64,000 nt of DNA from Hevea brasiliensis (lineage: Eukaryota > Streptophyta > Magnoliopsida > Malpighiales > Euphorbiaceae), in the NCBI RefSeq assembly GCF_030052815.1, contig NC_079496.1, positions 68,251,652-68,315,651 of the forward strand, given 5' to 3'. Position numbers and translations under genes: made by a program. Below, piece by piece: positions 1-49,638 of this stretch (positions are counted from its first letter, which is position 1; each line of letters opens with the position of its first letter). The notes beneath the pieces were generated by a model. It had not been told where the DNA came from. It did not search any database and saw only the letters and a list, made by a program, of their open reading frames with translations.

Positions 1-842
1 AAATTCTTGTTGTATGATTTATCGAATAAAGTTTAGTTTATTTAAGAAATTTTCTAGCTTTAAAAATAAAGCATGATTTTATATTTGTTAATATTTTAAT
101 TGATTTCATTTATAAAATTGTGATTATGTTAATGTGTAAATTATTATTTTCTTTAAGTTGTGCACCACTGAGTCTTTAGCTCAACGATAGCTTGTTTATG
201 CTGTCGCAGGTAAAGAGGCAGATAAAACAGCAGAGTAGACTGCTTGTGACTTGGAGTGGTCAGCTTTTTGGAGTATTTACCGGGTACATAAATTGTACCC
301 TTATAGATTTTCGCTTAATGTATATGTATCTGTGTGTATGTACATAACAAACTTGAGCAGTTGTATAAAGATTTTGGAATTTTATTTTTGATCAATGTAA
401 ATATTTATAATGTAAACCTGTTATTTTCTTATTAATGAAATGCTTAAGTTTCTTTTTGAATTTTTCAAATAATAAATTGCTTGAAATTGTGTTGTTGAGA
501 TTGAATTGTATTGAAAATGTTGCAGTTCTAGTTAAGACACATATATTGAAAGTGTTTATAATAGGTTTTGAGGAACTATTTTCTCAAATTACAGACTGCA
601 CTCTGCCGAAATTTTTGTAAAATTTTCGAAATCCCTAATTAATTAAAAATTTGACTCATGACATAAACCTTAATTAAAAGCTTTCAATAAGTTTTCAACA
701 TTTCCTTACAATTTAAAATAAATAGAAATTGGTTTAAAATCCCTTGTAGTATATTTAATGGGTTATCGGTAGGCGAAGTTCGATAATTCATTAGGTATAC
801 TATGAGATCATATTATGCCTTACAGAGAGATAAGGTGTGACA
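1..842 (+). repeat. 3' portion of the 5' LTR of Ty3/gypsy element E1
   Basis: The LTR enters from the left edge and ends in TGTGACA at 842, directly before a primer site. It carries the paired hairpins at 161-210, a GGGTACA/TGTACCC inverted repeat at 282-300, TTGAGCAGTTGTA at 353-365, the block GAACTATTTTCTC...CACTCTGCC at about 570-610, and the tail shared by groups B and C (TTAATGGGTTATCGGTAGGCGAAGTT, TTAGGTATACTATGAGATCA). Those shared blocks place it near group C. Its start lies outside the window, so its full length and TSD cannot be given. Confidence 0.88.
161..210 (+). promoter_or_regulatory. Paired LTR hairpins, E1
   Basis: TGAG-TCTTTAG-CTCA, then CGATAGC-TTGTTTAT-GCTGTCG. A third inverted repeat, GGGTACA-TAAAT-TGTACCC, is at 282-300. 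Confidence 0.65.
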
Positions 843-914: not shown

Positions 915-927
915 TACAACTGCTCAA
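915..927 (+). other. Leader segment complementary to the LTR (E1)
   Basis: TACAACTGCTCAA is the exact reverse complement of TTGAGCAGTTGTA at 353-365 in the same element's LTR. It sits 53 nt past the primer-binding site, so pairing would enclose that site. Confidence 0.7.
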
Positions 928-976
928 TATCATTGATTGATACATACGGTCCATTATATTATAGATATGAACTAAT

Positions 977-9430: not shown

Positions 9431-9877
9431 TGTCACACCCTACCCCTCTGTAAGGCATAACATGATCCCGTAGTATACCTAATGAATTACCAACTCCGTC
9501 TAATGATAACCCATTAAATATACTACAAGGGATTTTAAAAAACTTTTCTTCTTTTACCGTGGTGAGCACTATTTACAGGTGTTAAAAACTTTGGTGAACT
9601 GAAGTGAAACAACTAATTCATTTGATTTATTTGGAATTTCTGTAAAAATTTTGGCAGAGTGCCATCTGTATTTTGGACAAAATAGTTCTTCAGAAAACCT
9701 GTAAAAAGCACTTCAATAATATTCCAAATCTCAACTCCAATATATTTCTCAACACAACAATTTATCAACTCAATTCCATAGAAATTTTTCAAAGTCTGAG
9801 ATAAGGAAATATAATACAGCTTTTACAAGTCAAAACAGCTCATAATTATTTTACAACTTCAAGGTACAATTTGAATT

Positions 9878-9890
9878 TACAACTGCTCAA
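9878..9890 (-). other. LTR copy of TTGAGCAGTTGTA
   Basis: Exact 13-mer matching those in E1, E5, E6 and the solo B LTR at 42150-42162. There is no leader here to pair with, since this is a solo LTR. Confidence 0.7.
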
Positions 9891-25759: not shown

Positions 25760-26545
25760 TGTCACACCTTACCCCTCTATAAGGCATAGTATGATCCCGT
25801 AGAATACCTAATGAACTACCGAACTTCACCTACCGATAACTAATTAAGTACCCTACAAGGGATTTTAAAACAATTTTCTTACTTTCATAAGTAGTGAGCA
25901 TTTTCTACTAGGTATTAAAACATTTAATTAGAGTTTGAAAACTAGTTAAAATTTTTGTTCCATTTTATTTTTCCGCATATTTTATAAAAATTTCGGTAGA
26001 GTGCCGTCTGTATTTTGAGAAAACAGTTCTTCAAATACCTGTAAAAAGCACTTTCAAAGATTTATCTCAATAACTTCATCATTTCAACATCCATCCCAAC
26101 CAATTTCAACATCATTTCTCAATTTCCAAAATTCAACATCATCAAAATACTATAATTCAATATCATTCAAATTAAAACAAAATATTTCCATTCATATTTC
26201 AATAAAGATAAAACAATTTATATACATCATTCCAAAATATACATTAGGAAAAATCCAAACCAAAATTAATTACAAGCTTTATACAACTGCTCATGACCAT
26301 TTCCTACATTTACATACATTACATACATCAAAATAATTTTTACAATCAGGGTATAAAATATACTCGATAAACTTCAGAGTAGGTTGCTCCTCAATCCTTA
26401 GCAGCTCACTCTGCTGCTCCCCTAGTCTCTATATCTGCGACAGCAATAACAACCATTGTTGAGTATTAGGACTCAGTGGTGCACAACATACTAAAATAAC
26501 CTTCATGCAAAATTTAAATCATACTTATTCAAAAATTAAACTGAA
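25760..26545 (-). repeat. Group C LTR fragment (3' end of the LTR)
   Basis: Plus-strand TGTCACACCTTACCCCTCTATAAGG is the reverse complement of an LTR end. The following 780 bp match the tail of the group C solo LTR at 48870-49638. AAAGT (25755-25759) is the expected TSD. It is cut by E5 at 26546, and the rest was probably lost in the deletion ending at 58797. Hairpins are at 26434-26483. Confidence 0.82.
26434..26483 (-). promoter_or_regulatory. Paired LTR hairpins, group C fragment
   Basis: Minus strand: TGAGT-CCTAAT-ACTCA is perfect. The second stem is decayed on its 5' arm (AACAATGG against TTGCTGTCG). Confidence 0.5.
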
Positions 26546-29511: not shown

Positions 29512-29641
29512 TAGACAGACTGACAGGGCAGCAGACTAGGCTGCCAGTGCTTCAATGAGAGTTCATTGGGTATATTGAGTATACCATATTCTGCATTTTG
29601 TATTATAATGTATGTTCACTGTGTATATAGTGTTCTTGGTT

Positions 29642-29654
29642 TTGAGCAGTTGTA
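29642..29654 (+). other. LTR half of the LTR-leader complementary pair (E5)
   Basis: TTGAGCAGTTGTA. Its exact reverse complement is at 30195-30207. Upstream, TATAATGTA at about 29604-29612 also has its complement in the leader (TACATTATA, 30235-30243). Confidence 0.7.
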
Positions 29655-30129
29655 AATTAAAATTGTACATTAAAGTTGTAAACTAAATTTGTAAATTATT
29701 TTGGTTTGTAAATATTGTGATATATTTCTTTTATCTCAGCCTTTGAAAATACTGAAAAATTATTATGGATTTGAGTTGAGAAACATATTGTGTTGATTAA
29801 ATGTTGGAGTTTGAGATTGAGAAATATATTTGCACTTGCTTTTTACAGGTTTTTGAAGAACTGTTTTATTCAAAATACAGATGGCACTCCGCCAAAAGTT
29901 TTACAGAAATTACTAATAATTCAAATGTGTTAACTGTTTCACTTCAGTTCAAAAAAAATTTTTTTCACACCTGTAAATAGTGCTCACCACTGTAAAAAGA
30001 AGTAAGAAAATTTTTAAAATCCCTTGTAGTATATTTAATGGGTTATCAGTAGACAAAGGTTGTAATTCATTAGGTATACTACAGGATCATGTTATACTTT
30101 ACAGAGGGGTAGGGTCTGACATGTTTAAG

Positions 30130-30141
30130 TGGTATCAGAGC
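30130..30141 (+). other. Primer-binding site of E5
   Basis: TGGTATCAGAGC, complementary to the 3' end of initiator Met-tRNA, 8 nt after the LTR end. Confidence 0.92.
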
Positions 30142-30194
30142 TAGTTTTTAAAATTCTGTTTTTCACCTGTAATTTTAATATTCTTTCTTCATAG

Positions 30195-30243
30195 TACAAC
30201 TGCTCAATGTCATTGTTTGATACATATAGTACATTACATTATA
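30195..30243 (+). other. E5 leader segment, inverted copy of an LTR segment
   Basis: TACAACTGCTCAA at 30195-30207, and TACATTATA at 30235-30243, are reverse complements of pieces of the same order in the LTR (29602-29654). Confidence 0.65.
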
Positions 30244-30898
30244 AATATGCACTAACAGGAGCAAATCTGTAGCACCCCTATATGTATAGTCTGGTATATT
30301 TCACTATTCCGGTGACCGGTGTTAGTCCAGATAATTAAGGAGATTAGAACCACATCTAAGACAACTAGATAAACCATAAACACAAATAATTAGTAATTGT
30401 CAATTAGTTATGTCACACCTTACCCCTCTGTAAGGCATAACATGATCCCATAGAATACTTGATGAACTACCGAACTTCACCTACCGATAATTCATTAAGT
30501 ACACTACAAGGGATTTTGAAACCATTTTCTTACATTTTGGAAGTGATGAGCATTTTGGTAAGAATTAAAAATCATTTATTCAAGATTTAAATACTAAAAA
30601 AAATTATGTCCATTTAAATTTTATAAAAATTTTGACAGAGTTCCGTTTAAAATTAGAGAAAACAGTTCTTCAAATACCTGAAAAAAACACTTCCAAAAGT
30701 TTTTCACAACTCCCAACCTTCAATAAATCTCAATCAACTCAATTCAACGCACTTCAAAATAATTTCACAATACAAATCAAGATTTATCATCTCAAAATAT
30801 TTAATATCTCCAATCACAAAGCATAAAGTAAGAAATTCATAAGTACAAATATTAATTTACAGAAGGAAATCCAAAACATAATATTATTACAATTTATT

Positions 30899-30950
30899 TA
30901 CAACTGCTCAAATTTATATTGATACATACAACATTTTCATATTTACATCA
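30899..30950 (-). other. E6 LTR segment complementary to the E6 leader
   Basis: On the minus strand: TGATGTAAATATG (30938-30950), TATGTATCAAT (30918-30928) and TTGAGCAGTTGTA (30899-30911). The leader at 38532-38580 carries the reverse complements of all three in the same spacing order. The 5' LTR has the same segment at 43014-43066. Confidence 0.75.
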
Positions 30951-31049
30951 AAATTATCTACAAGGGTATAAAATAATACCCGTACAAAATGATCGATGTG
31001 GTCCACAATTCGATAGTAGCTCACTCTGCTGCTTTCTCCTTGCTCTTAT

Positions 31050-31100
31050 CTGCGACAGCAAAATGAGCTATCGCTGAGTATAAAAATACTCAGTGGTGCA
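31050..31100 (-). promoter_or_regulatory. Paired LTR hairpins, group C (E6 3' LTR)
   Basis: Minus strand: TGAGTA-TTTTTA-TACTCA, then GCGATAGC-TCATTTT-GCTGTCGC. The third inverted repeat GGGTAT/ATACCC is at 30964-30981. Confidence 0.65.
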
Positions 31101-33780
31101 CAGTAAAAATTTAAAATGCAATAAATAAATCATTCATTAATGAAACACCATTTAAATAATTCTCAATCATATTTCACAAATATCAAAGCTCATAACAACT
31201 CCATTTAGTTAAATAATTCATTAAACACAGTGTTGCCAAAATCATATACACAACTTAAGCCATGACACAAAATTTCTGATCAATGCCGTGTTGTACACCA
31301 CGACAAAGCAATCTCAACCCCATTAAACGAAATTAATGAGGGAGGTGGCTAGCTAGCTAATGAGTACTCATCCGATCTCAACCTCAACTGGCAAGCCAGA
31401 GAGGGAGGAAAATAAACGATCTCAACCCCATAAATGGAGGAGGAATAATGTGATACTGTCATGCTAAGTGTGAACGTAAAATCAATTCAAAACAATTTAT
31501 TCAAACAATTTATGAGAAATCTGATCAATTTTCAAAGTCACATTTACGATTATAAAATGGCAACACAGTACATAATTAATCAAAGAAGTCAAATTTTTTA
31601 GATTAAAATATTTAAACAATTATTATTGTGCACAAACCTGACGTAAGTCGCCTTTAGGCCTTGACTCAGTCTCTTCGAGTTTCCAAGTCTTTTTCAGCTG
31701 AAACACACAATTTCACAGTGTTTCAGTACCATAACTTAGCATAAATCCAAAAATAAATTTCACTTCATTTTCACCTAGCTTTAATATACTAATTTCGACG
31801 TTCTCAAAGTTTTTGTGTTTCGGGTTACTATTAACTACACTATTCAAGTCAAATTGTTGACTTTTTAAGGCTTAATAGGTATGGGAACTCCAACTTCACC
31901 CACATACCACATTTTGGTCATTAAATTTGTTGGTTTTGGTTATTTTCTCAAAACTTAAGTCCTTTTGGCCAAATTGTCAAATTTTCAGTTTTGGTGCTCC
32001 AAGTTGCACTGTTCCATTGGTCAATCTACTGTTGGAATTTGGCAAACATTTCTTCATAGAAAATGTTCCTTATTGTCTTAAGTTTATTCTCATTTTTGGA
32101 TCACCTCAATTGGAGTTTTGTAGCTCAAGTTATGGCCATTTGAACTAGGGCTGCCGGATTGAAAACAACCCAGATTTTCTGGGCAATTCTGGTGCTGGCA
32201 GATTTGAGTCACCAACTTGGGGTGGCGAAATGACTTAGTTGCTGGCAGAATTTGGACTTGTGTTCTTCATGAAAGTTTTAGGTCTATATCTCATCTAACC
32301 ACTGGTAAAATTTCAGGTCATTTTGACCTGCCTAGCTCTAGTTATGACGAAATGAACAAACCCTGTTCATTTGATCGGTTTACTGATGTGCATCGCTCTT
32401 ATTCAACTTTGGTCAATTGGTTCACTAAGTTTTGGTCACTTTTTGGGCATGGTTCCTGAATAAAAATTTGTGTCATTTTATGTCTATTTTCATATGACCT
32501 TTCAACCTCCGAATTTGGCTTCACTTCCAACAATTCAAACACAACTCATTTGGTCACAATTGACCATTTTTCACTTCACAATAGGTCAAACATGCAATTT
32601 ACTCATTTTTTGCATTTTTGGTTCACAAACCCTAAGTCCCAAAACCCTAACTCACTTAATTGTTATAATTAATCACATTTATGCATTTCCATCTTACTAC
32701 CATACTCATGTAAGTTTACTAACACCTTTAATTCATTCTAAACACATCAAATCATACAAAATCATACTCCCCTTCAACAGGCCGAAATTTCAGTTTGGTC
32801 CTCCCCCCCCCCCATATTTGTTTTCATTTCATTAGTTCCAAGCTCATTTCAACAACCAATTAGGCATTTAAAATGGAAAAATGACAAGTTAACATACTAA
32901 CCTCAACTTAAACACCAAATCTTCAATTGTTCTCCATCTTTCTTCTTTCTTTCTTGTTCTTAAGTTGAGATTGCAAGCTCTAGTAAGGTTTTTAGGGGAT
33001 TTATTAAGGTTGAGTGGAGGAATTAAAGCTTAAGTGCAAGCTTTAATGGAGGATTAGCAATGGTGAAATGAAGAAGAGAGTGAGGCGGCACCAAGGAGAA
33101 GAAGAAGAGATTTTTCTATTTTTTTTTCTTTTGTTTTCTTTTATCAATTTTGCTTATGGAAGACCACAAAATCTAATTTAATAAATATTTAATTAATTTA
33201 GTTATGGCATCATGCATGAGGTCATGCATGATGTCATCACCTTTTTACTTTTTGATTTCCTCTTTTTTTTTTCTATTAGTTCTTTAATTTAATTCTCGAT
33301 TCTGAAATTTCTTTTCTCCGATTTTATTTGACAGTTAGGTCAAGAGTCAGCTCTCGGGGTCAATTGACCAAATTGCCTCCCGCCGGTTCATCCCGGTTTG
33401 TAAATAATTTCATATTTCTTCTGGTTCCCTGACCTAATTATTTGACTGGCTTAACAGTTCTTTTTCATGATTTTCTCTTTTCCACTGTGTTCATAATGGT
33501 CCTAAGGACCGCAGCGTCACATTTTACGGTTCGAAATTTGAGTTCAAAATGACTTCGCAGTCGTTCCTGAGGAGGTCACCCATCGCTGTGACTCTCGGCT
33601 CGTTTAACTTCTTATGTTCTGTTTTTCCTATTTATACTTAACTAATTGAATATTACTAATTTTTTGTGTTTATGGTTTTTTTAGTTGTCATAAGTATGGT
33701 TCTAATCCCCTTAATTGTCCGGACCGACACCGGTCACCGGAACAGTGAAATATACCAAGTTATACAATAGGGGTGTTACA

Positions 33781-33794
33781 ATTCTCCCCCCCTT
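33781..33794 (-). other. E6 polypurine tract
   Basis: Minus strand AAGGGGGGGAGAAT directly before the 3' LTR. Confidence 0.92.
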
Positions 33795-33799
33795 AAAAT

Positions 33800-33818
33800 A
33801 AATTTCGTCTCGAAATTT
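33800..33818. other. AAATTTCG-NNN-CGAAATTT palindrome next to the E6 polypurine tract
   Basis: Perfect 8-bp arms around TCT, between the pol stop and the polypurine tract. Equivalent palindromes are in E5 (53083-53101) and E7 (59180-59199). Confidence 0.75.
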
Positions 33819-33827
33819 TGCCTGGTA

Positions 33828-36800
33828 TCAATCTCTGAACAGCTGTGGGTGTTGTTTCCTCATGTCCTCCTCTCGTTCCCAAGTAGCTTCTTGGCCCGAA
33901 TGATGGTTCCACAGCACTTTTACCAATGGTATCTGCTTGTTCCGTAGCTGTTTCACCTCATAAGCCAGAATCTTTATGGGTTCTTCTTCATATGTGAGGT
34001 CTGGATTTACTTCAACTTCTTCTACTGGTAGTAAATGAGATGGGTCTGATCGATACCTCCTCAAAATAGACACATGGAAGACATTATGTATCTTCTCCAA
34101 CTGTGGAGGTAGTGCCAAACGATATGCCAAAGGACCCACTCTTTCCAATACCTCATATGGCCCGATAAAACGACGACTTAGTTTCCCCTTCCTACCGATT
34201 TTCATAATCCTCTTCCAAGGAGAAACCTTGAGGAAAACTTTCTCACCCACTGCATACTCAATATCCCTTCTTTTCAAATCAATATAGGACTTCTGATGGT
34301 CTGATGCAGCTTTAAGTCGATCTCTTATCACCCTGATTTTCTCTTCAGTCTGTTGAACAACTTTGGGTCCAATAATTTTTCTTTCACCCACGTCATCCCA
34401 AAACAACGGGATTCTACATTTCCTGCCATACAAAGCTTCATATGGAGGCATCCCAATGCTTGATTGGTAGATGTTGTTATAAGCAAACTCAATCAAAGGC
34501 AAGTGTGTATCCCAACTACCCTCAAACTCAATCACACAAGCCCGTAGCATGTCCTCCAATATCTGAATTACCCTCTCAGACTGGCCATCTGTCTATGGGT
34601 GGAATGCAGTACTGAAGTTCAATCTACTTCCTAGGGCTCTCTGAAGACTACCCCAGAATCTAAAAGTGAACCTAGGATCTCCGTCTGATACAATGGATAC
34701 TGGCACTCCATGAAGTCTCACAATCTCATCAATGTACAACCTGGCCAATCTGTCTAGACTGTAGTCCATTCGGACTGGCAGAAAATGAGCAGACTTAGTT
34801 AGTCTGTCGACAATGACCCATACTGCATCATGACTCTTCTGTGTCCTCGGAAGTCCCATTACAAAATCCATAGTTATTCTTTCCCATTTCCATTCGCAAT
34901 CGATGTGGATGTAATAACCCAGTTGGTACTTAATGCTCTGCCTTTACTTGCTGACAAGTTAGGCATTTGGATACAAACTCTGCCACATCTCTTTTTAAAC
35001 CCATCCACCAGTAATGCTCCTTTAGCCCTTTGTACATTTTTGTACCACCAGGGTGCATAGTAAAAGGAGACTCATGTGTTTCCTTCAAAATGATCTGCCT
35101 CAAATCAACATCATTAGGAACACATATTCTACCCTGGTGTAGCAATAGACCATCATCTCTGATTGAGAACTCTGGTTTCTTGCCCTGCCGAACTTCTTCC
35201 AACAGCTTTTGATACTTTTCATCATTCTGAGCAGCCATTCTGATCTGATCAATTAGCACTGGCTGTACATGCCATACAACTGCTGTCTGCCCCTCATCAT
35301 TAATTTCTAAGCTGGCATGCATTGACGTTAACTCATGCACCAAAGACAATGGAGTAACTTGTAGACTTGCCATAGTCTTGCGACTTAGGGCATCAGCCAC
35401 AACATTAGCTTTCCCTGGCTGATAGTCTATCAGAAAATCATAGTCTTTTATCAATTCTAACCATCTCCTCTGTCTCAAATTCAACTCTTTCTAGGTGCCC
35501 AAATACTTCAAACTCTTATGATCTGTGTAGATATAGCACTTCTCCCCATACAAATAATGTCTCCAGATCTTAAGAGTAAACACAATAGTTGCAAGCTCCA
35601 AATCATGTGTTGGATAATTCCTCTCATGCTGTTTTAGCTGGCGTGATGCATAGGCAATAACATTTCGATCTTGCATCAACACACAACCTAACCCATTTTG
35701 AGAAGCATCGCTGTAAACTGTATATTCTTTACCCAGTGTAGGTAAAGTCAAGACTGGAGCCTCTGTCAAACATCTTTTCAATTCATCAAAAATTTGTTGG
35801 CATTTGTCCGTCCACTGAAATTTCACATCCTTTCTAAGTAGCTTGGTCAATGGAGATGCCAACATAGAGAATCCCTTCACAAATCGACGGTAGTATCCAG
35901 CTAGCCCCAGGAAACTGCGAATCTCTGTGACATTTCTGGGTGGCTTCCAATTAAGGACAGCTTCAATCTTGCTAGGATCTACCTTAATACCCTCTGCTGA
36001 TACTATGTGCCCCAAAAAGGATATCTCCTTCAGCCAAAATTCACATTTCGACAATTTGGCATATAGCTGTTTCTCCCTCAAAGTCTGCAGTACAATCCGC
36101 AGATGTCTATCATGCTCTTTTGCATTCCTTGAATAGACCAATATATTATCGATAAATACCACAACAAACTGGTCGAGGTATGGTCTGAAGATAGTGTTCA
36201 TCAGATCCATAAAAGCAGCCGGAGCATTAGTTAACCTGAATGGCATGACCAAGAACTCATAATGTCCATAGCGGGTTCTAAAGGCAGTTTTAGGAATACT
36301 CTGCTCTTGTACTTTCAGCTGATAATAACCTGATCTCAGGTCAATTTTGGAGAACACAGCTGCACCCCTCAACTGATCAAATAAGTCATCAATACGGGGC
36401 AATGGGTATCTGTTCTTTATTGTCACCTTATTTAACTGTCGATAGTCAATGCATAACCAGAGAGTGCCATCCTTCTTCTTTACAAACAGCACCGACGCTC
36501 CCCAAGGTGACACACTAGGGTGAATTGTCAAGCAACTCTTGCAACTGTACTTTCAATTCTTTTAGTTCTGCTGGTGCCATTCTGTATGGCGTTATGGAGA
36601 TTGGTTCCACACCAGGCATAACATCAATTTCAAACTGCACATCTCTTTCTGGAGGTAATCCTAGCAATTCATCAGGAAACACATCCGAAAAGTCACATAC
36701 AGTAGGAATGTCCCTCAGTGCTGGACTCCCCACTTAGGTGTCTATGACATGTGCCAAGTATGCCTCACACCCTTTTCTAATCATTTTTCTGGCCAGTGTA

Positions 36801-38462
36801 GCTGAAATGATGTTTGAAGGCAATAACTGCCTCTCCCCATGTATTACTACATCACCATACTGAGGAAGACCAAAAGTGACTGTCTTCAATCTGCAGTCAA
36901 TCATGGCGTAATGCCTGGCTAACCAATCCATGCCCAAGATAATATCATAATCTCTGAAGGGTATTTCAATTAAATCAGACAGAAAAGTGTGTCCTTGGAT
37001 CACCAAAGGACAGTCTCTATATAGCCTATTTACCCTGACCTCCTAGCCAAATGGACTAGTTACTAGCACTTCATAATCCATTGGTACACACTGAATAGTA
37101 GTAGAACACATCACACTAGCACTAACATACGAATGTGTGGAGCCAGGATCAAATAACACATACACATCTTGGTCAAGGATGGAGGAAATACCAGCTACTA
37201 CATCTGATGTTTCAGCTTCCTCCCTCTGATGCATGGTATACACTCTGACTGGTGCGCCACTGGATACTGGCTGGTTAACAGTGCTTTGACTTCCAGGAGT
37301 GCTACCAGGACCCCTACCTCTGCCTCTACCTCTAACAGTTGATGGTGACCCTCTAGGTGCAGAGATTTGGGCTGATCCTTCCGATCTAGCAAAAGATCCA
37401 GACCGGCGCAGACTAGTACAATCTTTAGCGAAATGTCCGCTTCCTCCACAGTTAAAACATGCTCCGATGGCCTTGAAGCAAATCCCACTATGAGTTTTAC
37501 CACAAGTTTCACACTGCCGGACTGAAAGAACTCCTCGAGAAGCTTGTTGGGTCAGCTGACCAGACCGGGGTGGTCTTTGGCCAGAAAATCTGCCTCTGCC
37601 AGATCTACGGGAGCTGGATCCCCCAAATTGTTTCCTCTTGCAGAACCACTTTCAGATGCTTGTCCAGTAGTCTTTTCAGCCTTCTCTTTCTCTTGTGAAC
37701 CCTTCTTCACTGCCCTTCAGATTCTATCCTTTCTAGTTCCAAGGCCTGGGAGATCAATTCAGCAAAATTCTGATGTTGAAAACCCACGACTTGCATTCTC
37801 AAATTCGGCCTTAATCCAGACTCAAACCTCTTGCATCTGTCTCTGGGGGTGGAGACTAAGCTTCCAGCATAGTGGCTTAGCCTTGAGAAGTCTCTCTCAT
37901 ATTCTGCTATGGTTCTGTCCCCTTGTTTCAAACTCAAGAATTCTTGCAATTTCTTATCTACATATGCATCAGGAACCCATTTCTGCCTGAATTTCCTCAG
38001 GAAGTCTGTCCATGTCAGCACAGGTGGCTCAACCAGGCAGTGAGGGATGGTCTTCCACCATCCATATGCATCCCCTTGTAACAAGGAAACATAATACTCG
38101 AACTTCATCTCTTCCGTACACTGCAGTTTTCTGTAAACTCGTTCCATTCTTTCCAACCACTATTCTGCCTCCAGTGGATCCACAGTGCCTTTAAACTCGG
38201 TGGCCCCAAATTTCATCAACTTTTCATATTGCCGAGCTGAGGGCTGTGGTTGTGCTACAGGTACTGGCATCTGAGCTTGGGGTGGCACATTAGCCGCCAT
38301 TTGCTGGAAAAACGCAGCCATCTGCTGTACAAATTGAGCAGGAAACTGCGGTGCTGGAACAGGAGCTGGAGTGGCTGACCCACTCACGTTCTAGAGTGCT
38401 GGGGCTTCCCCTTGAACCTCAGCCTCAACAGATTATTCTTCGGAATGATCTCCTCCTTCCAT
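33828..38462 (-). pseudogene. gag-pol: E6 gag-pol (gag, protease, RT, RNase H, integrase, chromodomain-like end)
   Basis: From ATG at 38462: gag with FKGTVDPLEAE and WWKTIPHCLVEPPVLTW, zinc clusters CETCGKTHSGIC and CFNCGGSGHFAKDC (about 37430-37530), protease FDPGSTHSYVSAS (about 37130-37170), GMDWLARH, RT from about 36730, RNase H ([10 protein letters not shown]), integrase H2C2, core, GPY motif (RFIGPYEVLERVG) and a chromodomain-like end (EEEPIKILAYEVKQLRNK...EATWE). Defects: TAG at 38391, about 38157, 37043, 35491 and 34593; TAA at about 38435, 36734 and 34930; a frameshift after 37707; a deletion and frameshift near 36520-36530; a frameshift near 34912; and RT FIDN (codon 36145-36147). 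One gag-pol frame is the likely original layout. Confidence 0.93.
36137..36160 (-). other. E6 RT catalytic box mutated, FIDN
   Basis: [13 protein letters not shown] replaces the FIDD box seen in E5 (50740-50750 region) and E8. AAT at 36145-36147 encodes Asn where the second catalytic Asp should be. This is a G-to-A change on the coding strand. Confidence 0.9.
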
Positions 38463-38502
38463 TCCGTTTTCCCAAATTTTTCCTTCCTGAGATCAAACAC
38501 AA

Positions 38503-38516
38503 GGAGGTTGACCTCC
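38503..38516 (-). other. E6 leader hairpin
   Basis: GGAGG-TCAA-CCTCC on the minus strand, about 40 nt before the gag ATG. It matches the E1 hairpin in place, with one extra base pair. Confidence 0.55.
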
Positions 38517-38531
38517 GTTAGTGCATATTCA

Positions 38532-38580
38532 TGATGTAAATATGTCATATGTATCAATTAAAGACACTTGAGCAGTTGTA
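38532..38580 (-). other. E6 leader segment complementary to the LTR
   Basis: Its plus strand reads TGATGTAAATATG, then TATGTATCAAT (38548-38558), then TTGAGCAGTTGTA (38568-38580). It is an inverted copy of LTR 30899-30950 / 43014-43066 and sits 50 nt past the primer site. Confidence 0.75.
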
Positions 38581-38630
38581 CTTATCAAAGAAATATTCAC
38601 ATGCATAGTCAAAATTTATTGAAAAACCAT

Positions 38631-38642
38631 GCTCTGATACCA
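38631..38642 (-). other. Primer-binding site of E6
   Basis: Minus strand TGGTATCAGAGC, exact, 8 nt from the LTR end at 38651. Confidence 0.93.
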
Positions 38643-38752
38643 CTAAAACATGTCACACCTTACCCTTCTGTAAGGCATAACATGATCCCATAGAATACTT
38701 GATGAACTACCGAACTTCACCTACCGATAATTCATTAAGTACACTACAAGGG

Positions 38753-41700
38753 TGTAACACCCCTAAGTTTGGTAGTGCGTTCTGCTGCTCCAGTGACCAG
38801 TGTTGTCCGGACAGCTAGGATGCCTAGAACCACACTTCAATGAGAGTGAGGAGACATAAAATAATGAAATAAAAGAAAAGAAAGTACAAGAAAAACAAAG
38901 GAAAAATGATTGCAAAGAAATGTGATCAAGTTAAACGAGCCTGGAAACCTAACGATGGGTGACCGCACTGGGAAGTCACGGCGTGGACCGTTGATCGCCT
39001 GGATCATGAGGAACCACGGAAAACATTTTTGGTACATAAATAGACCCTTGTTGAAGAATAAATATCATTAGAAATATCAAAGAAAAATTAAATAATTAGT
39101 ACAAAGAAAAGTGAAAAATCGAAAAACAGACAAAATACGGTGTTACCGAAAAATCGGGAAAGCCACCCGAACAGGGGCATTATGGTCATTTGACATCCCG
39201 AATTGTCTTTTGACCTAAATGTCCATTAAAAATAAATAGTATTACACTTAGAAAATGAAATGAAAAATTAATTTGATGGTACCTAAAATAAATAGTGGAA
39301 ATAATGGGTTAAATGTGGATTAATTGAAAGTTAACTTATAATATGTTTTAATTTTAGTTAGTGGACCACTATAGGATTAATTTATCATTGAAATATGGCT
39401 GATATGGTCCACTCACCATCTGAAATTCCATCTTCCTCAAAATTCTCTCAAATGGCCGAATTGAAGAAACCTTGAAACTCCATTGACGTTTTTCTTTGAG
39501 CTTCATTTCCTCTCTCCATTTCAACTCCATTCTCTTAGGTTCTTTCATGAAAAATGGTCTACACACCACAAGGAAGATATTGATACTAATTTTGAGAAGT
39601 TTGGTGAAGGTTTAGCAAGTTACAAATAAAGGTAAGTTTGCATTTTTGAGAAATCCTTTGTTAAAGTTTTTATGCATGTTATGGGTATTGGTTTGGTGAA
39701 GGAAAATTTTGAGTTTGAAGGGTTATTGTTGTTGCCATTTTGGACAGCCATGGGTCACGTTTTTGATGAGGTATTTGTGTATATAATTGATGAGAAATAA
39801 TGTTAATCATGGTGATTTAGTAACCTAGTGATTTAATGCATGTATATATGGTGAATGATGCACTTTGATGGGAATTGGCATATGGTACGGCAATGTGATG
39901 TTGATGAATGAATTGTGGCAGCCTGTGGACACTTGAATAATGGTGTATATTGAAGGGAGTGTGGGCAGCATATTGACCTAGAAGGATTGATGATATGTAT
40001 GTCAATTAACATTGTAAAGTGTATGTAAAGTTTGTAATGTTTAGGTGTGTTTGTAATGGTACTTAGAAATTGTAATTGTGAATGATATTTGGTGTGTTGA
40101 GGGTGATTGGAATCTGCCCAAAATAATGCTAATGTTATGTAGAAAATGTTGTTGGTAATGTGCCAAAACAGTTTGGTAGGGTATGGAAGTAAACCTTGCA
40201 AAGGTAAGTGTGTGTTTGAAGTTGGGGTGTGTAATGCATATTAAGGGCAGTGTATATTTTGGCCTATAACCTTGAATGTGTAACCTCAATTAGTATGAGA
40301 CCAATTTGAGGTGAAACTAGGCACAAAATGTGCCAACTTTCATTGAGAAACCATGCCAAAATTTTGCTTGCAAGGTGACCTAAAAATTTGACCAATTCGG
40401 ATTAGGTGCAATTAGGACCTGAAAAATGACCAATTGGGCAGCAGTGAGTGTTTAGGCCATAACTCACTCAAACCAGGTCCAATTGACCTGAAATTTTGAC
40501 CAAGAATAGTTAAGACCCATACCTACAAGTCTTATGAAGACACCAAAGCCCATAAATGACCATAAGCAAGTCAAACAACTTGCACAAGTTCGGGTCCAAA
40601 AACTGGCCGAACCAGAATTGACCACTTTGACCTAAAATTGACCTAAAATGGTACCATTTGACCAGCAAGAGTGTAATGACCATAACTCGGTCTACTTAAC
40701 TCGGATTGACCTGAAATTTTGCACCGCGTGCAATAAGACCTAGATCTACAAGTTTGTAGTTTCGACCGAGACCCGAAAACCGAGGGAACTAGATCGTCCG
40801 GTTAGGTCAAACCAGTGTTCCGGAATCCAGCAATTTGCATTAAAATGCACTAAGCAAGGAAATGACTTTGGTAAAACATACCAAATCTAAAACCCTATCA
40901 AATGTGACATATTAACGACACTAAAACCTAATTTACCTAAAACGCAACGAGTATATTAGGTGATTAAGTGAATAATTGAGTTCAGTGCATTATTTACCAA
41001 ACACCATCGATAGAGACAGTTTAAATTAGTACTGAAACACTTCAAATTGTGTTTCTCAGTTACCAAAGACTCAGGAAAAGGGAAGGAAACACTGAGTCCA
41101 GATCAGGGGGACAGTCATCAGAGGTTTGTGCACAACAACTGTTTCTTTTGAATTATTTTCAATGGAAATAAATATTGACTATTTGCATATCATTGTTTTA
41201 AATTGTGGAAATGTGTTTGGTGGACACTTATTGATTGAAAAACATTGTGAATGGTTTGAAACTGTGAAAAATTGTTTGAATGGTATTTGATGGATACTTA
41301 TTGATTGAAAAGCACTGTAAATGGTTTTTGTGGAAATTGAAGTGAATTACGAATTGTGTTGCCATTTTGTGAATGAAATTATAACTTTGGAAATTTATTG
41401 GATTCTTACGGATCATTTGAATAAAATGTTTGGAATTGTTTTGACTCACAATTGGCATGACACGGATATTATGTTCCTCCTCCATTAATGGGGTGAGTGT
41501 GATTATTCCTCCCTCTTTGACTTATTAGTCCGGGTGAGTATGATTATGTTCCTCCTCTTTGACTTCCCACCGAGGTGAGTATGGATGAGTTCTCATTATA
41601 TAGCTAGCTTCCTCCTCATTGATTTCGATTATTGGGGTGAGCATGTCTTGTCGTGGTGTACAACACGGCATATATGGAAAAATTGTGTCATGGCCTAAAT

Positions 41701-42609
41701 TGTGTTATAGATTGGCAACACTGTATTCTTGATTATTTGATCGAATTGTGTTATTATGTATTGTGAGATTGTGAAATTGATTTAAACTCTTATTGACATA
41801 TCATCTATTGAATTCAACCATGATCGACTTATTGAAAATTATTGTGATATTAACAAGCTGAGTTTAAATTCTTGTTGACATTTATTGTCTTGAATTTAAC
41901 TATGGTTTTAAGTATCCACTATTGATATGATTTATGAATTGTGATTTAAAATTTGTATTTGGTAAATGTTGTGCACCATCGAGACATTGTCTCGTGATAG
42001 CTTTATTCTCGCCGCAGTAGAGAGACAGTGGCAAAGCAGTTAGGTCGCTAGTATCGCCAATGAGAGATTTTGGGTATAGTGAGTATACCACATGTGGCAT
42101 TTTGTAATCAGTAATGTATATTCACTGTATGTATGTTTTGTTCTTGGTTTTGAGCAGTTGTAAATTTAAGTTGTACAGTAAAGTTGTAAAATAATTATGA
42201 GTTATTTGGCTTGTAAAAATTGTGTTATATCTTTGTATCTTAGTCTTTGAAAATCACTGTGGATTTTACTTGAGAAATGTGTTGTGTTGATAAAAATGTT
42301 GGAGTTGAGATTTGAAAATATATTGAAGTGCTTTTTACAGGTTTTCTGAAGAACTGTTTTGTCCAAAATACAAATGGCACCTTGCCAAAATTTTTACAGA
42401 TATTCCAAATAAATCAAATTAGTTAGTTGTTTCACTTGATTCACCAAAGTCTTTCACACTGTAAATAGTGCTCACCACTGTAAAAGAAGTAAGAAAAGTT
42501 TTTAAAATCCCTTGTAGTGTATTTAATGGATTATCAGTAGACGGAGTTAGTAATTCATTAGGTATACTACGGGATCATGTTATGCCTTACAGAGGGGTAG
42601 GGTGTGACA
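38753..42609 (+). mobile_element. Group B solo LTR in the E6 5' LTR
   Basis: TGTAACACCCCTAAGTTTGG to GGTGTGACA, 3857 bp; TSD AAGGG at 38748-38752 and 42610-42614. It is the innermost level of the nest. It contains CCATAACT modules at about 40457 and 40680, the about 70-bp tandem duplication (about 41220-41335), a run of TTCCTCCTC...GGTGAGTATG units (about 41470-41645), the hairpins, and TTGAGCAGTTGTA (42150-42162). Confidence 0.95.
41971..42018 (+). promoter_or_regulatory. Paired LTR hairpins, group B solo LTR
   Basis: First stem CGAGAC-ATT-GTCTCG: the TGAG/CTCA pair has become CGAG/CTCG, a compensated change. The second stem is decayed (GTGATAGC...CGCCGCAG). Confidence 0.6.
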
Positions 42610-43013
42610 AAGGGATTTTGAAACCATTTTCTTACATTTTGGAAGTGATGAGCATTTTGGTAAGAATTAAAAATCATTTATTTAAGATTTAAATACTAAT
42701 AAAAATTTTGTCCATTTAAATTTTGCCGCAAATTTTATAAAAATTTTGACAGAGTTCCGTTTAAAATTGGAGAAAACAGTTCTTCAAATACATAAAAAAA
42801 AACACTTCCAAAAGTTTTTCACAACTCCCAACCTTCAATAAATCTCAATCAACTCAATTCAACGCACTTCAAAATAATTTCATAATACAAATCAAGATTT
42901 ATCGTCTCAAAATATTTAATATCTCCAATCACAAAGCATAAAGTAAGAAATTCATAAGTACAAATATTAATTTACAGAAGGAAATCTAAAAAATAATATT
43001 ATTACAATTTATT

Positions 43014-43066
43014 TACAACTGCTCAACTTTATATTGATACATACAACATTTCCATATTTACATCAA
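43014..43066 (-). other. E6 5' LTR copy of the leader-complementary segment
   Basis: Same three blocks as 30899-30950: TACAACTGCTCAA at 43014-43026, then ATTGATACATA and CATATTTACATCA on the plus strand. Confidence 0.72.
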
Positions 43067-43164
43067 AATTATCTACAAGGGTATAAAATAATACCCGTAC
43101 AAAATAATCGATGTGGTCCACAATTCGATAGCAACTCACTCTGCTACTTTCTCCTTGCTCTTAT

Positions 43165-43214
43165 CTGCGACAGCAAAATGAGCTATCGTTGAGTATAAAA
43201 ATACTCAGTGGTGC
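43165..43214 (-). promoter_or_regulatory. Paired LTR hairpins, group C (E6 5' LTR)
   Basis: As at 31050-31100, with one C-to-T change in the second stem (CGATAGC to CGATAGC preceded by AA). Confidence 0.6.
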
Positions 43215-45964
43215 ACAATAAAAATTTAAAATGCAATAAATAAATCATTCATTAATGAAACACCATTTAAATAATTCTCAATCATATTTCACAAATATCA
43301 AAGCTCATAACAACTCCATTTAGTCAAATAATTCATTAAACACAGTGTTGCCAAAATCATATACACAACTTAAGCCATGACACAAAATTTCCGATCAATG
43401 CCGTGTTGTACACCACGACAAAGAAATCTCAACCCTATTAATCGAAATCAATGAGGGAGGTGGCTAGCCAGCTAATGAGTACTCATCCGATCTCAACCTC
43501 AACTGGCAAGCTAGAGAGGGAGGAAAATAAACGATCTCAACCCCATAAATGGAGGAGGAATAATGTGATACTGTCATGCTAATTGTGAACATAAAATCAA
43601 TTCAAAACAATTTATTCAAACAATTTATGAGAAATCTGATCAATTTCCAAAGTCACATTTACAATTATAAAATGGCAACACAGTACATAATTAATCAAAG
43701 AAGTCAAATTTTTGAGATTAAAATATTTAAACAATTATTATTGTGCACAAAACTGACGTGAGTCGCCTTTAGGCCTTGACTCAGTCTTTTTCAGCTGAAA
43801 CACACAATTTCACAGTGTTTTAGTACCATAACTTAGCATAAATGCAAAAATAAATTTCACTTCATTTTTACCTAGCTTTAATGTACTAATTTCGACGTTC
43901 GCGAAGTTTTTGTATTTTAGATTACTATTCACTACACTATTCAAGTCAAATTGTTGAATTTTTAAGGCTTAATAGGTATAGGAACTCCAACTTCACCCAC
44001 ATACCACATTTTGGTCATTAAATTTGTTGGTTTTGGTTATTTTCTCAAAACTTAAGTCCTTTTGGCCAAATTGTCAAATTTTCAGTTTTGGTGCTTCAAG
44101 TTGCACTATTCTATTGGTCAATCTACTGTTGGAATTGGGCAAACCTTTCTTCATAGCAAATGTTCCTTATTGTCTTAAGTTTATTCTCATTTTTGGATCA
44201 CCTCAATTGGAGTTTTGTAGCTCAAGTTATGGCCATTTGAACTAGGGCTGCCAGATTGAAAATAACCCAGATTTTCTAGGCAATTCTGGTGCTGGCAGAT
44301 TTGAGTCACCAACTTGGGGTGGCCAAATGACTTAGTTTCTGGCAGAATTTGGACTTGTGTTCTTCATGAAAGTTTTAGGTCTATATATCATCTAACCACT
44401 GGTAAAATTTCAGGTCATTTTGACCTGCCTAGCTCTAGTTATGACAAAATGAACAAACACTGTTCATTTGGTCAGTTTGTACAGTGGCAGACTGCTCTTA
44501 TTCAACTTTGGTCAATTGGTTCACTAAGTTTTGGTCACTTTTTGGGCATGGTTCCTAAATGAAAATTTGTGTCATTTTATGTCTATTTTCATCCCCAATT
44601 GGTACCATATCAATTGGACTTGTAAAATTTTAGTTTTGGTCCATCAAAGTTGACTTTGGCAGCATGACCATTCAACCTCCGAATTTGGCTTCACTTCCAA
44701 CAATTCAAACACAACTCATTTGGTCACAATTGACAATTTTTCACTTCACAATAGGTCAAACATGCCATTTACTCATTTCTTGCATTTTTGGTTCACAAAC
44801 CCTAAGTCCCAAAACCCTAACTCACTTAATTGTTACAATTAATCACATTTATGCATTTCCATCTTACTACCATACTCATGTAAGTTTACTAACACCTTTA
44901 ATTCATTCTAAACACATCAAACCATACAAAATCATACTCCCCTTCAACAGGCCAAAATTTCAGTTTGGTCCTCCCCCCTCATATTTGTTTTCATTTCATT
45001 AGTTCCAAGCTCATTTCAACAACCAATTAGGCATTTAAAATGGAAAAATGACAAGTTAACATACTAACCTCAACTTAAACACCAAATCTTCAATTGTTCT
45101 CCTTCTTTCTTCTTTCTTTCTTATTCTTAAGTTGAGATTGCAAGCTCTAGTAAGGTTTTTAGGGGATTTATTAAGGTTGAGTGGAGGAATTAAAGCTTAA
45201 GTGCAAGCTTTAATGGAGGATTAGCAATGGTGAAATGAAGAAGAGAGTGAGGCGGCACCAAGGAGAAGAAGAAGAGATTTTTCTATTTTTTTTTTCTTTT
45301 GTTTTCTTTTATCAATTTTGCTTATGGAAGACCACAAAATCTAATTTAATAAATATTTAATTAATTTAGTTATGGCATCATGCATGAGGTAATGCATGAT
45401 GTCATCACCTTTTTACTTTTTGATTTTCCTCTCTTTTTTTTATTTTTTTCTATTAGTTCTTTAATTTAATTCTTGATTCTGAAATTTTCTTTTCTCCAAT
45501 TTTATTTGACAGTTAGGTTAGGAGTCAGCTCTCGGGGTCAATTGACCAAATTGCCCCTCGCCGGTTCATCCCGGTTTGCAAATAATTCCATATTTCTTCT
45601 GGCTCCCTGACCTAATTATTTGACTGGCTTAACAGTTCTTTTTCATGATTTTCTCTTTTCCACTGTGTTCATAATGGTCCTAAGGACCGCAGCGTCACAT
45701 TTTACGGCTCGAAATTTGAGTTTAAAATGACTTCGCAGTCATTCCCGAGGAGGTCACCCATCGCTGTGACTCTCGGCTCGTTTAACTTCTTATGTTCTGT
45801 TTTTCCTATTTATACTTAACTAATTGAATATTACTAATTTTTTGTGTTTATGGTTTCTCTAGTTGTCATAAGTATGGTTCTAATCCCCTTAATTGTCCAG
45901 ACTGACACCGGTCACCGGAACAGTGAAATATACCAGGCTATACAAATAGGGGTATTACAAGTTA

Positions 45965-48900
45965 AGTATAAAAAAGAAAAATAAAACATAAGAAGTTAAA
46001 TGAGCCGAAAGTCACAGCGATGGGTGACCTTCTCGGGAACGACTGCGAAGTCAATTTAAACTCAAATTTCGAATTGTAAAATGTGACGCCGCAGTCCTTA
46101 AGACCATTACGAACACAGTGGAAAAGAGAAAATCACGAAAAAGAATTGTTAAGCCAGTCAAATAATTAGGTCAGGGAGCCGGAAGAAATATTGAATTATT
46201 TGTTAACCGGGTTGAACTGGCGTGGGGCAATTTGGTCAATTGACCCCGAGAGCTGACTCCTGACCTAACTGTCAAATAAAATCGGAGAAAAGAAAATTTC
46301 GGAGTGGGGAATTGAATTAAAGAACTAATAGAAAAATAAATAAAAAAAATAAGAAAATAAAAAAGTGAAGGGAGATGACATCATGCATGACATCATGCAT
46401 GATGTCATAAATATTATAGTTAATAAATTTAATTAAATTGATTTATGGTCTTCCTAAGACATTAAAGAAAAAAAAAAGAAAAGAAAAGAAAAAAAAAAAA
46501 CATAAAAGTCTTCTTCCTTCCCTAAGTTGCCGCCCCACCTCTCCCTTAACACCACCATTACCACACCTCTATGAAAGCTTGCTCCAAGCTTTAAATCCCC
46601 CATTAAACCCTAATTTCTTCCCCAATCACTTCATAAAACATTATTTTCTTCCTTTGAGAAAGAGATTTAGCAAGAAAGAAAGAAGAAAAGAGGAAAAAAA
46701 AATTGAAGATTGAATATCAAAGTTGAGGTAAGCTATTTACTTTGGAATTTTGAGTTCAATACATGTGTTTATGATTGAATGAACTTGGAAATAAGCTTAA
46801 AATGAAATGAAGACAAGTGTTATGGGACAAAGTTGAATTTTGGCCAACTAAGGTTTGATATATGTATGCATGAACTTGGTGAATTTAAAGGGTATGTGAG
46901 CTTATTGGTGTTGAATACTTATGATTAAATGTCTTGAATTAGTTAAATGCAATGAATTAGTGTGGTTAGGGTTTGACACCTAGGGTTTAGAGGCAAAAAT
47001 TTGGAGAAATGGTGAAATGATGTATTTGATCTAGTTTGAAGTGAAAAATAGTCATTTGTGACCAAATGAAGTGTGTTGCAAGTGTTGGAGTTAAGGTTAA
47101 ATTCGGATTCAATGTGGTCATGCTGCAAGGTCCCTTTGAGAGACCAAAATTGAAAATTTACAAGTCCAATTGGTATGAGACCAATTGGGAATGAAAATAG
47201 ACACTAAATGACACAATTTTCATTTAGGAACCATGCCCAAAAAGTGACCAAAACCTAGTGAATAAATTGACCAAATTCGGAAATTCTCAGTCTGCCCTGT
47301 ACAAATTGACCAAATGAACAGTGTTTGTTCATTTCGCCATAACTTGAGCTAGGCAGGTCTAAATGACCTGAACTTTTACCAGTGGACAGTTGAGGTATAG
47401 ACCTAAAACTTTCATGAAGAATACAAACCCAACAAATTATGCCATTAACCAAGTCATTTAGCCACCCAAATTTGGTGACCTAAAACTGCCAGAACCAAAT
47501 TTTGCTAAAAAATCTGGGTTAAGTCCAATCCGGTAGCCATGGTTCAAATGGCTATAACTTGAGCTACAAAACTCCAATTGGAGTGATTCAAAAAGAAGAA
47601 TAAACTTAAGACAATTGGGAACATTTTCTATGAAGAATATTTTGCCAAATTCTAACAGTAAAATGATCAATGGAACAGTGCAACCTTAGACACCAAAATT
47701 GAAAATTTATCAAATTTGCCTAAAAGACTTAGAATTTGAGTAAACAACTAAAACCAACAAATTTAGTGATTAAAATATGGTATGTGGGTGATGTTGGAGT
47801 TCCCATACCTATTAAGTCTTAGAAAGTCAACAAATTGACTTGAATAGTGTCGTGAATAGTAACCCTGAAACACAAATTTTAAAGAATATCAAGTTTAGCA
47901 TATTAAAGCTAGGTATAAATGAATTTGAATTTATTTTTGGATTAATGATGAGTTATGATACTGAAACACTGTGAAACTGCATGTTTCAGTGAAAAAAAAT
48001 ACCGGGAAGGAACCCGAGTAATCGAGTCAAGGCTAAAAGGCAACTCGTTTAAGGTTTGTGCACAACTAACCTTTTTGTTACTTTTCACTTCTAAATTGAT
48101 TTGAACAAGTTTATTTTATGATTTATAATTTTGTTGTGTTGAGGATTTTAATTTGTTGAATGGAATTGTATAAATTAAATGTAAATTTTCTTATGCATTT
48201 AAGGATTTATTGCATGGTTTTGAGAATCGTAAATTTTAAGTTTGATTTGTTGCCAACCTTGAGCATGAATTTATAATGATTAAATATGTTGATGATTTGT
48301 AAATACTTTGTAAATAGAAATTGTTTTGAATATGATTTGAAACCACAGTTGACATAGCAAAATTTGTTGTGAATTCTCATTAGCTTGTCTAGTGAGATAT
48401 CTCCTCCACTAGATGGGGCGAGTTTCTTCCTCTCTGGCTTGCCAGTTGGGGAAGAATTTGAATGAGTACTCATATATACTAGCTAGTCTTTGTTCCTCCC
48501 TTTTAGCCTCAGTTATTGGGAGAATGTGAAATGTCTTGGTGTATAACACGGCATCTATTTGAATTTTGGGTCATGGATTCAACTGTGTGAATTGTTGGCA
48601 ACGCCCTTTAAATTATGCATAATTTGATAAATTGTGATTGAAATGAATAATTTGTTAGTGATTCAAAATATTTTTGTATTGTTTCAAAATTTAAAAGAAA
48701 TGTAAATAAATAGTTATCAATTGATCAAAATGTTATTCAAATGAAAAATTTGAATTAATGAAAATAATAATTTTTGAATGTCATGGATTTTAAAGAATTT
48801 AAAAATTTTAAATTTTTATTCATTATGAATTGTTAAGAATAATTTGTATGAAGTTTTAAATTATTAGTTTGTGCACCACTGAGTTCACCACTCAGCGATA

Positions 48901-49638
48901 GCTTTGTATGCTGCTGCGGATATAGAGACTAGAGGAGCAGCAGATTGAGCTACTGAGGACAGGGGAGCTACCTGCTTGAAGTTATTGGGTATAATTTATA
49001 CCCTGACTGTAAATATTCATTTTAATGTATGTATTGCACGTAATTGTATGGGCATGTAAAATCAGTCTTGAGCAGCTTATACAAAGTTTGTATAAAGTTG
49101 TAACAAATTTTAGATTGGATTTTCTTAATGCAAATTTCTAGTATGATGTATATATAAATTATTTTTTCATTAATGAAATATGATTGGTAGTATTTTATTT
49201 TAAATTGAATGAAATTCATTAATGGTATTTTGATAATTGTTGGATATTGGAAATGGGGAATTTGAATTTTGGAAGTTGATAAATGTGTTGAAATTGATTG
49301 AGATGATTGTGACTTTTGAAGAAGTTGTTGAGAAAAATTATTGGAAGTGTTTTTTTCAGGTATTTGAAGAACTGTTTTCTCAAAATAGAAATGGAACTCT
49401 GCCAAAATTTTTATAGAATTTGTGGAAAAATAAAATGGGCCAAAAATTTTAACTAGTTTCCAACTTTAATTAAATGTTTTAATACCTATTAGAAAATGCT
49501 CGCCACTTATCAAAAATAAGAAAATTGTTTTAAAATCCCCTGTAGGGTACTTAATGAGTTATCAGTAGGTGAAGTTCGGTAGTTCATTAGGTGTTCTATG
49601 GGATCATGTTATGCCTTACAGAGGGGTAAAGTGTAACA
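45965..49638 (+). repeat. Group C solo LTR, remainder after E6
   Basis: It continues the LTR begun at 30268: GTTAAATGAGCCGAAAGTCACAGCGATGGGTGACC (about 45996), an A-rich run (46464-46501), CCAATTGG modules (about 47160-47600), GGTTTGTGCACAAC (about 48053), hairpins, and the GAGGGGTAAAGTGTAACA end. There are no genes; ORFs here are chance. Confidence 0.9.
48872..48918 (+). promoter_or_regulatory. Paired LTR hairpins, group C solo LTR
   Basis: CTGAGT-TCACC-ACTCAG, then GCGATAGC-TTTGTAT-GCTGCTGC (one mismatch). The third inverted repeat GGGTATAA-T-TTATACCC is perfect at 48987-49003. Confidence 0.65.

Follow-up and report, generated by a model that had tools for sequence, protein, structure and literature searches.

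Covarying complementary segments in the LTR and leader of a plant Ty3/gypsy retrotransposon family suggest a long-range RNA helix around the primer-binding site

In the yeast retrotransposon Ty1 (Pseudoviridae) CYC3 has its pairing partner, CYC5, downstream of the primer site, and according to passages of one account this pairing is needed for an efficient start of reverse transcription and the defect is complemented when pairing is restored (PMC4974528). For Ty3, cyclisation has been proposed to use a tRNA bridge and a split primer site (passages of PMC4974528 and PMC11381356). LTR retrotransposons make up as much as 90% of some plant genomes according to a part of a 2025 review of plant LTR elements, the main text of which is without the terms 'secondary structure', 'dimer' and 'packaging signal' (PMC12786077). 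A 2013 LTR study notes, in part of its text, U5-IR stems and stems in LTR and LTR-adjacent sequence, and left plant Metaviridae LTRs unmodelled owing to their length variation (PMC3601003). Little was found on RNA folding and packaging of plant LTR retrotransposons, and a helix of the kind considered here was not recognised as described for a plant element in the literature searched, which was mostly non-subscription and is no proof of novelty. In retroviral U5-leader stems the arm lies tens of nt from the primer site and the domains are much smaller than ~560 nt.

Here we analysed E6, a retrotransposon in a window of 64,000 nt of Hevea brasiliensis DNA, together with its relatives. Like Ty1 CYC5:CYC3, the E6 family has an arm just past the primer site whose complement lies elsewhere in the RNA, and it carries what would be compensated changes, here as natural covariation between but not within subfamilies. 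Unlike Ty1, the partner arm of the E6 family is inside the LTR and hence occurs twice per element, and the element is Ty3/gypsy; the helix predicted from the sequence is longer than that of Ty1 and divided into blocks. The predicted fold would also resemble the retroviral U5-leader and U5-IR stems (Rous sarcoma virus, HIV-1 U5:AUG), where LTR pairs with leader around the primer site, but the LTR arm of the E6 family lies 398-573 nt before the LTR end rather than tens of nt away. E6 shares with Ty3 its superfamily and, as we assume, a tRNA-Met primer, and the ends of Ty3 have likewise been proposed to be brought together; in contrast to the split primer site and tRNA bridge of Ty3, RNA-RNA pairing is predicted for the E6 family. 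The PPT hairpin of Sire, a plant member of the Pseudoviridae, is similar in that a plant LTR is paired with LTR-adjacent sequence, and differs in lying at the 3' end around the PPT and in belonging to the other superfamily, as described in a part of PMC3601003.

The window is filled with nested plant LTR retrotransposon sequence. E6 is oriented on the minus strand, its LTRs start with TGTAACACC and end with GGTGTGACA, and its 5' LTR is interrupted by a nested insertion at 38753-42609. The exact primer-binding site, TGGTATCAGAGC, is presumably of the tRNA-Met type. Minus-strand Pfam matches were obtained for five of six pieces of E6 (Retrotrans_gag, zf-CCHC, RVP_2, RVT_1, RNase H, Integrase_H2C2 and SH3_Tf2-1), the piece at 34593-34943 having no Pfam match, and gag, protease, RT, RNase H and integrase follow the Ty3/gypsy order. 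A weak Chromo match after the integrase stayed below the cut-off (E 2.5e-4, 21.3 bits vs 25.1), and we take the Tekay clade as a lead for the placement of E6. The gag piece was 95% identical to a Hevea brasiliensis protein over 86% of length. E6 sits in the LTR of a relative (30268-30410 and 45960-49638) with a 5-bp target duplication, AGTTA, seen by eye, and this relative comes after another copy with a shortened leader.

In element sense the E6 leader reads TACAACTGCTCAA ... ATTGATACATA ... CATATTTACATCA (window 38580 down to 38532), and the complements TGATGTAAATATG ... TATGTATCAAT ... TTGAGCAGTTGTA are present in both E6 LTRs (Table 1). The original prediction had described these three inverted blocks; their places were confirmed except that the 5' LTR copy ends at 43065, not 43066, and its statement that the leader copy begins about 50 nt past an exact primer site was correct. 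The pairing of the E6 leader arm with the LTR (-49.8) was the best among 193 windows of 55 nt from the internal region (next value -45.1). After G+C correction its z was -7.1, and the runner-up (z -4.7) overlaps the leader arm. Comparison with 300 shuffled leaders gave z of -6.0 for E6 and of -3.1 and -2.9 for two relatives in the window, E1 and E5, and for each of these two at least one of the 300 shuffles out-paired the true leader. A 13-nt exact match was reached or exceeded by the best of 1000 shuffles for all three elements. Because shuffles rival the E1 and E5 leaders and yield 13-nt exact matches, the evidence from a single element is weak, and the strength of the observation therefore rests on the recurrence of the 13-mer across leaders and LTRs. 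A search of Rfam with 30000-45960 gave no match at E up to 1.

Table 1. Positions of the arms, LTRs and associated motifs in the window
Feature	Position	Strand	Remark
E6 leader arm, three blocks	38532..38580	-	~70-118 nt past LTR end, 50 nt past primer site
LTR arm, E6 3' LTR, three blocks	30899..30950	-	exact 13-mer 30899-30911
LTR arm, E6 5' LTR, three blocks	43014..43065	-	exact 13-mer 43014-43026
E6 3' LTR	30411..33780	-	TGTAACACC...GGTGTGACA
E6 5' LTR, 3'-terminal piece	38651..38752	-	adjoins leader
E6 5' LTR, remainder	42610..45959	-	
E6 primer-binding site	38631..38642	-	TGGTATCAGAGC, exact
Putative TATA box, E6 3' LTR	33627..33636	-	TATAAATAGG, LTR offset 144
Putative TATA box, copy in E6 5' LTR	45805-45814	-	TATAAATAGG
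AATAAA directly after LTR 13-mer	30893..30898	-	candidate poly(A) signal
E1 leader arm	915..972	+	exact 13-mer 915-927
E1 LTR arm	304..365	+	13-mer 353-365
E5 leader arm	30195..30252	+	13-mer 30195-30207
E5 LTR arm	29593..29654	+	13-mer 29642-29654
LTR 13-mer, related LTR	9878..9890	-	LTR end at 9431
LTR 13-mer, related LTR	42150..42162	+	LTR end at 42609
LTR 13-mer, related LTR	26282..26294	-	one mismatch; LTR end at 25760
Last ~115 nt of seven LTRs	30411-30525, 728-842, 25760-25874, 9431-9545, 30007-30121, 42495-42609, 49524-49638		

Nine exact copies of the 13-mer are present in the window, three of them in leaders and six in LTRs and always at the corresponding place, and with up to two mismatches 11 matches were observed against 2.4 expected. 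All three leaders (E6, E1 and E5) contain the three blocks, which align with their LTR counterparts, and the place of the leader arm is alike in the three, its distance from the LTR end being 70, 72 and 73 nt, respectively. The LTR stretch of ~200 nt that ends with the 13-mer had a mean column identity of 63% in eight copies, though the 13-mer itself recurs exactly. When the observed changes were placed at random over the arms, none of 500 placements gave pairing as good in any of six comparisons. When the 13-mer was held fixed, pairing was as good in 0, 0, 14, 17, 51 and 72 of 500, the 72 and the 51 being due to E1. Within the window a preference for the own LTR was seen for E6 only, the E1 leader giving -38.4 with its own LTR and up to -51.5 with others and the E5 leader -41.1 and up to -47.8.

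A pattern made of the LTR end and the primer site, which carries no information on the arms, matched 21,991 places (11,036 forward and 10,955 reverse) with up to two mismatches in the 1.88 Gb assembly of 755 contigs, and a reversed control pattern had 0 matches there. We sampled the first 100 of these places, all of them exact matches on a single contig (C1), and kept the 91 copies with both arms, six of the dropped copies being without an LTR arm and three without a leader arm. In these 91 copies the leader arm lies 59-74 nt after the LTR end and the LTR arm 398-573 nt before it. The leader 13-mer was exact in 69 of the 100 copies and present with up to one mismatch in 90, and the LTR 13-mer was exact in 39. 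A further 28 copies have TTGAGCAG in the LTR followed by CTTGT (14), TTTGT (13) or TCTGT (1), and judging by their letters most of these can still pair through a one-base bulge. Many 13-mer variants seen in a single copy resemble, by eye, C-to-T or G-to-A decay. No relative was found in viral contigs by three patterns or in bacterial genome contigs by one pattern; with the RT piece, four stretches of the viral contigs matched the peptide pattern and none was confirmed as a relative.

Exchanging the arms between copies weakened the predicted pairing. The mean duplex was -44.5 kcal/mol for own arms and -39.2 kcal/mol with permuted leaders (sd 0.44; n=91), and none of 2000 permutations reached the own value, so that between subfamilies LTR and leader were not drifting independently, in agreement with the covariation check that the original prediction had set. 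One random copy was also drawn per LTR cluster, with clusters built, arms excluded, from the 330 nt at the LTR 3' end, and p was below 0.05 in 60 of 60 draws at each of 14, 17, 22 and 32 clusters. In a balanced subset (42 of 91) the true arm had a z of -8.3 and a difference of -5.6 kcal/mol, compared to differences of -0.9 to +0.3 kcal/mol for seven control LTR stretches. Six of these seven had |z| up to 1.7, and the stretch at -600, which by the arm distances overlaps part of the arm in many copies, had a z of -2.0.

Copies were assigned to groups A-D, named by the leader letters, and in each of the four the LTRs paired best with leaders of their own group. Own and other leaders gave -45.4 and -36.7 to -40.6 for group A LTRs, -43.0 and -32.3 to -37.2 for group B, -47.2 and -36.1 to -41.2 for group C, and -42.6 and -38.2 to -41.3 for group D. 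LTRs of the mixed class 'other' (6 copies) gave -38.3 with A leaders, -37.4 with fellow 'other' leaders and -39.5 as own pairs. Within groups own pairs were not clearly better in A (244/2000 permutations), B (1644/2000), C (129/2000) or 'other' (407/2000), and were better in D only (1/2000). A weak preference within groups is as expected if copies decay after insertion. The preference being mostly absent within groups, the signal rests on few between-subfamily splits. Six copies (L031, L039, L068, L084, L090 and L099) have LTR 3' ends that cluster with group C and arms and leaders of group D, suggesting exchange between subfamilies in which both arms were kept together. Two more (L027 and L074) combine D-type leaders with C-like LTR arms and may be mosaics of the arms themselves.

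Both letters change between groups in five of the eight variable pair columns of the helix. Column pair (14,68) is G-C in A and C and U-A in B; (30,58) is G-C in A, B and D and A-U in C; (49,40) is G-C in A and A-U in B, C and D; (52,36) is G-C in B and C, most commonly A-U in D and in A mixed with G-U; and (71,21), covered by 56 copies only, is G-C in B and U-A in C. By eye, the change in group B is seen as ATGGACA in the LTR opposite TGTCCAT in the leader. At the register of the helix 87% of cells pair, compared to 23-47% at slides of 1-6 columns. Double changes also occur in 37 of 842 other variable column pairs and are absent from three of the eight helix columns. The register test and this column enrichment are biased toward the helix because its columns were chosen from predicted pairs, and the exchange tests are independent of that choice. 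In the outer helix G-U pairs outnumber A-C mismatches by 142 to 38, a count that leaves out five of the 40 helix pairs and to which one column gives 52 of the 142. Inside the 13-mer A-C mismatches (46) outnumber G-U pairs (23); 19 of the former fall in one column, which we read as shifted by the extra base of group B. The five double changes inside the 13-mer were reached by 19 of 1000 permutations overall and were not above expectation within groups (137/1000), and they were dropped as evidence of covariation.

In 80 of 91 copies the minimum-energy fold of the stretch from arm to arm joined 10 or more core bases, closing being favoured by folds that start and end at the arms. The median number of LTR-arm bases paired with the leader arm was 47, compared to 8 with a shuffled leader arm. 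In folds of ~900 nt of E6, E1 and E5 the 13 bp had predicted pair probabilities of 0.78-1.0.

The LTR arm lies at about LTR position 2830-2880. The putative TATA box TATAAATAGG is at offset 144-145 in both E6 LTRs, with TATAAAAAAG in its place in the relative that E6 entered, and this offset of ~144 puts the LTR arm downstream of the likely start of transcription. The pairing idea of the original prediction thus gained on two counts, the probable position of the arm after the start and the covariation between subfamilies. AATAAA occurs within 60 nt after the LTR arm in 50 of 91 copies, compared to 2-11 of 91 in ten windows starting at +40 to +220, and peaks again further on, at window starts of +280 to +320 (30-37 of 91). 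If one of these peaks is the poly(A) signal, the arm would be part of R and the RNA 3' end would have a second copy of it. Together the TATA box and AATAAA suggest that the LTR arm is transcribed from the 5' LTR, probably in R. A-tailed genomic copies were tried as a poly(A) map and were unusable among the 13 matches listed, six being overlapping reads of one LTR place (L111), where the LTR continues past the A run, and seven being, by their letters, leader sequence in reverse. At ~270 nt before the LTR 3' end (E6 near 30680) seven of eight aligned LTRs have a T-rich stretch and then AGGT, which by its letters looks like a 3' splice site.

At the level of sequence, the data show complementarity, conservation of the 13-mer and covariation between subfamilies. 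The probable explanation, in our judgement, is a conserved long-range RNA helix whose two arms, the LTR and leader segments, coevolve. This helix would have ~45-50 base pairs in interrupted blocks. Its LTR arm would follow the likely TATA box and immediately precede the AATAAA cluster, at ~400-570 nt from the LTR 3' end, and its leader arm would lie ~50 nt beyond the primer-binding site. Within the genomic RNA the helix would close a domain of ~560 nt that holds the LTR end (U5) and the primer site. Formed in cells, it could give the 5' end a fold suited to primer annealing, the start of reverse transcription and/or packaging, comparable to the retroviral U5-leader stems, and closure of the domain would be expected to have an effect on priming, on packaging or on strand transfer. 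Should R extend beyond the LTR arm, the RNA 3' end would hold a further copy to which the leader arm could bind as well. We think it unlikely, though worth weighing, that the leader arm pairs mainly with that R copy, circularising the RNA as in Ty1 and placing its 3' end at the primer site, ready for the first strand transfer. The leader arm is downstream of the primer site like Ty1 CYC5 (described in a part of PMC4974528), and the first AATAAA peak would allow the arm to lie in R and be repeated 3', but the 5' copy of the arm is much nearer to the leader and the A-tailed copies yielded no usable poly(A) case among the 13 listed. Because both LTRs hold the same arm, sequence does not separate 5'-5' from 5'-3' pairing; we rank the local 5' helix first and circularisation second because the arms are nearest in the 5' configuration, and the two may form in turn.

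The position of the first AATAAA peak, directly after the LTR arm, would also fit poly(A) masking. After the polymerase has passed through the 5' LTR, the leader would bind the end of R and make the poly(A) signals of that LTR inaccessible, while the 3' LTR, with no leader behind it, stays open. The core ends in TTGTA, which we take to be a plant far-upstream-type motif and count for such masking. However, more than 500 nt are transcribed before the leader appears, which may be too late, the helix does not include AATAAA itself and there is the second AATAAA peak, and we consider masking very improbable. We give equally little credence to arms without RNA function, the leader arm having arisen long ago by inverted duplication of the LTR segment and both being retained as sites of DNA binding or by common descent. 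The arms do align as one inverted sequence family, the 13-mer varies little and covariation within groups does not exceed chance, but common descent or a shared DNA motif predicts neither the advantage of own arms nor the surplus of G-U pairs relative to A-C mismatches in the outer helix. Somewhat less doubtful, though still a long shot, is that the leader arm serves as a subfamily-specific address that first binds the arm of the 5' LTR and later, once inside the particle, the matching arm of the 3' LTR. As part of this the leader arm would mimic minus-strand strong-stop DNA and guide the first strand transfer, and differences between arms would keep thousands of related RNAs of one genome from crossing in packaging or strand transfer.

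Returning to the long-range helix, the family is very abundant and its arms stayed matched while their letters changed, which points to a working RNA clamp, by analogy with those described for yeast elements and retroviruses. The proposed helix, coevolving and spanning the primer site, is a concrete target for structure probing, ligation mapping and reporters, and offers a way to ask whether subfamilies separate their RNAs.

Other parts of the LTR also contain possible structures. At 30912-31102 and its equivalents the short inverted repeats CTGAG..CTCAG, GCGATAGC..GCTGTCGC and GGGTAT..ATACCC recur in several of eight LTRs, the E1 counterpart of the last being GGGTAC..GTACCC. In the LTR region upstream of the arm RNAalifold kept one 3-bp stem (59 of 91 copies with the starting block), the three pairs of CTGAG..CTCAG, and the further hairpins seen there by eye were set aside, having no support as a structure shared by the copies. 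Mean column identity in seven copies was 90% over the terminal ~115 nt of the LTR. By eye, the predicted folds of E6, E1 and E5 form a long hairpin in this stretch and then a second one that spans the LTR end, and the conserved stretch is possibly a second RNA element or an integrase element.
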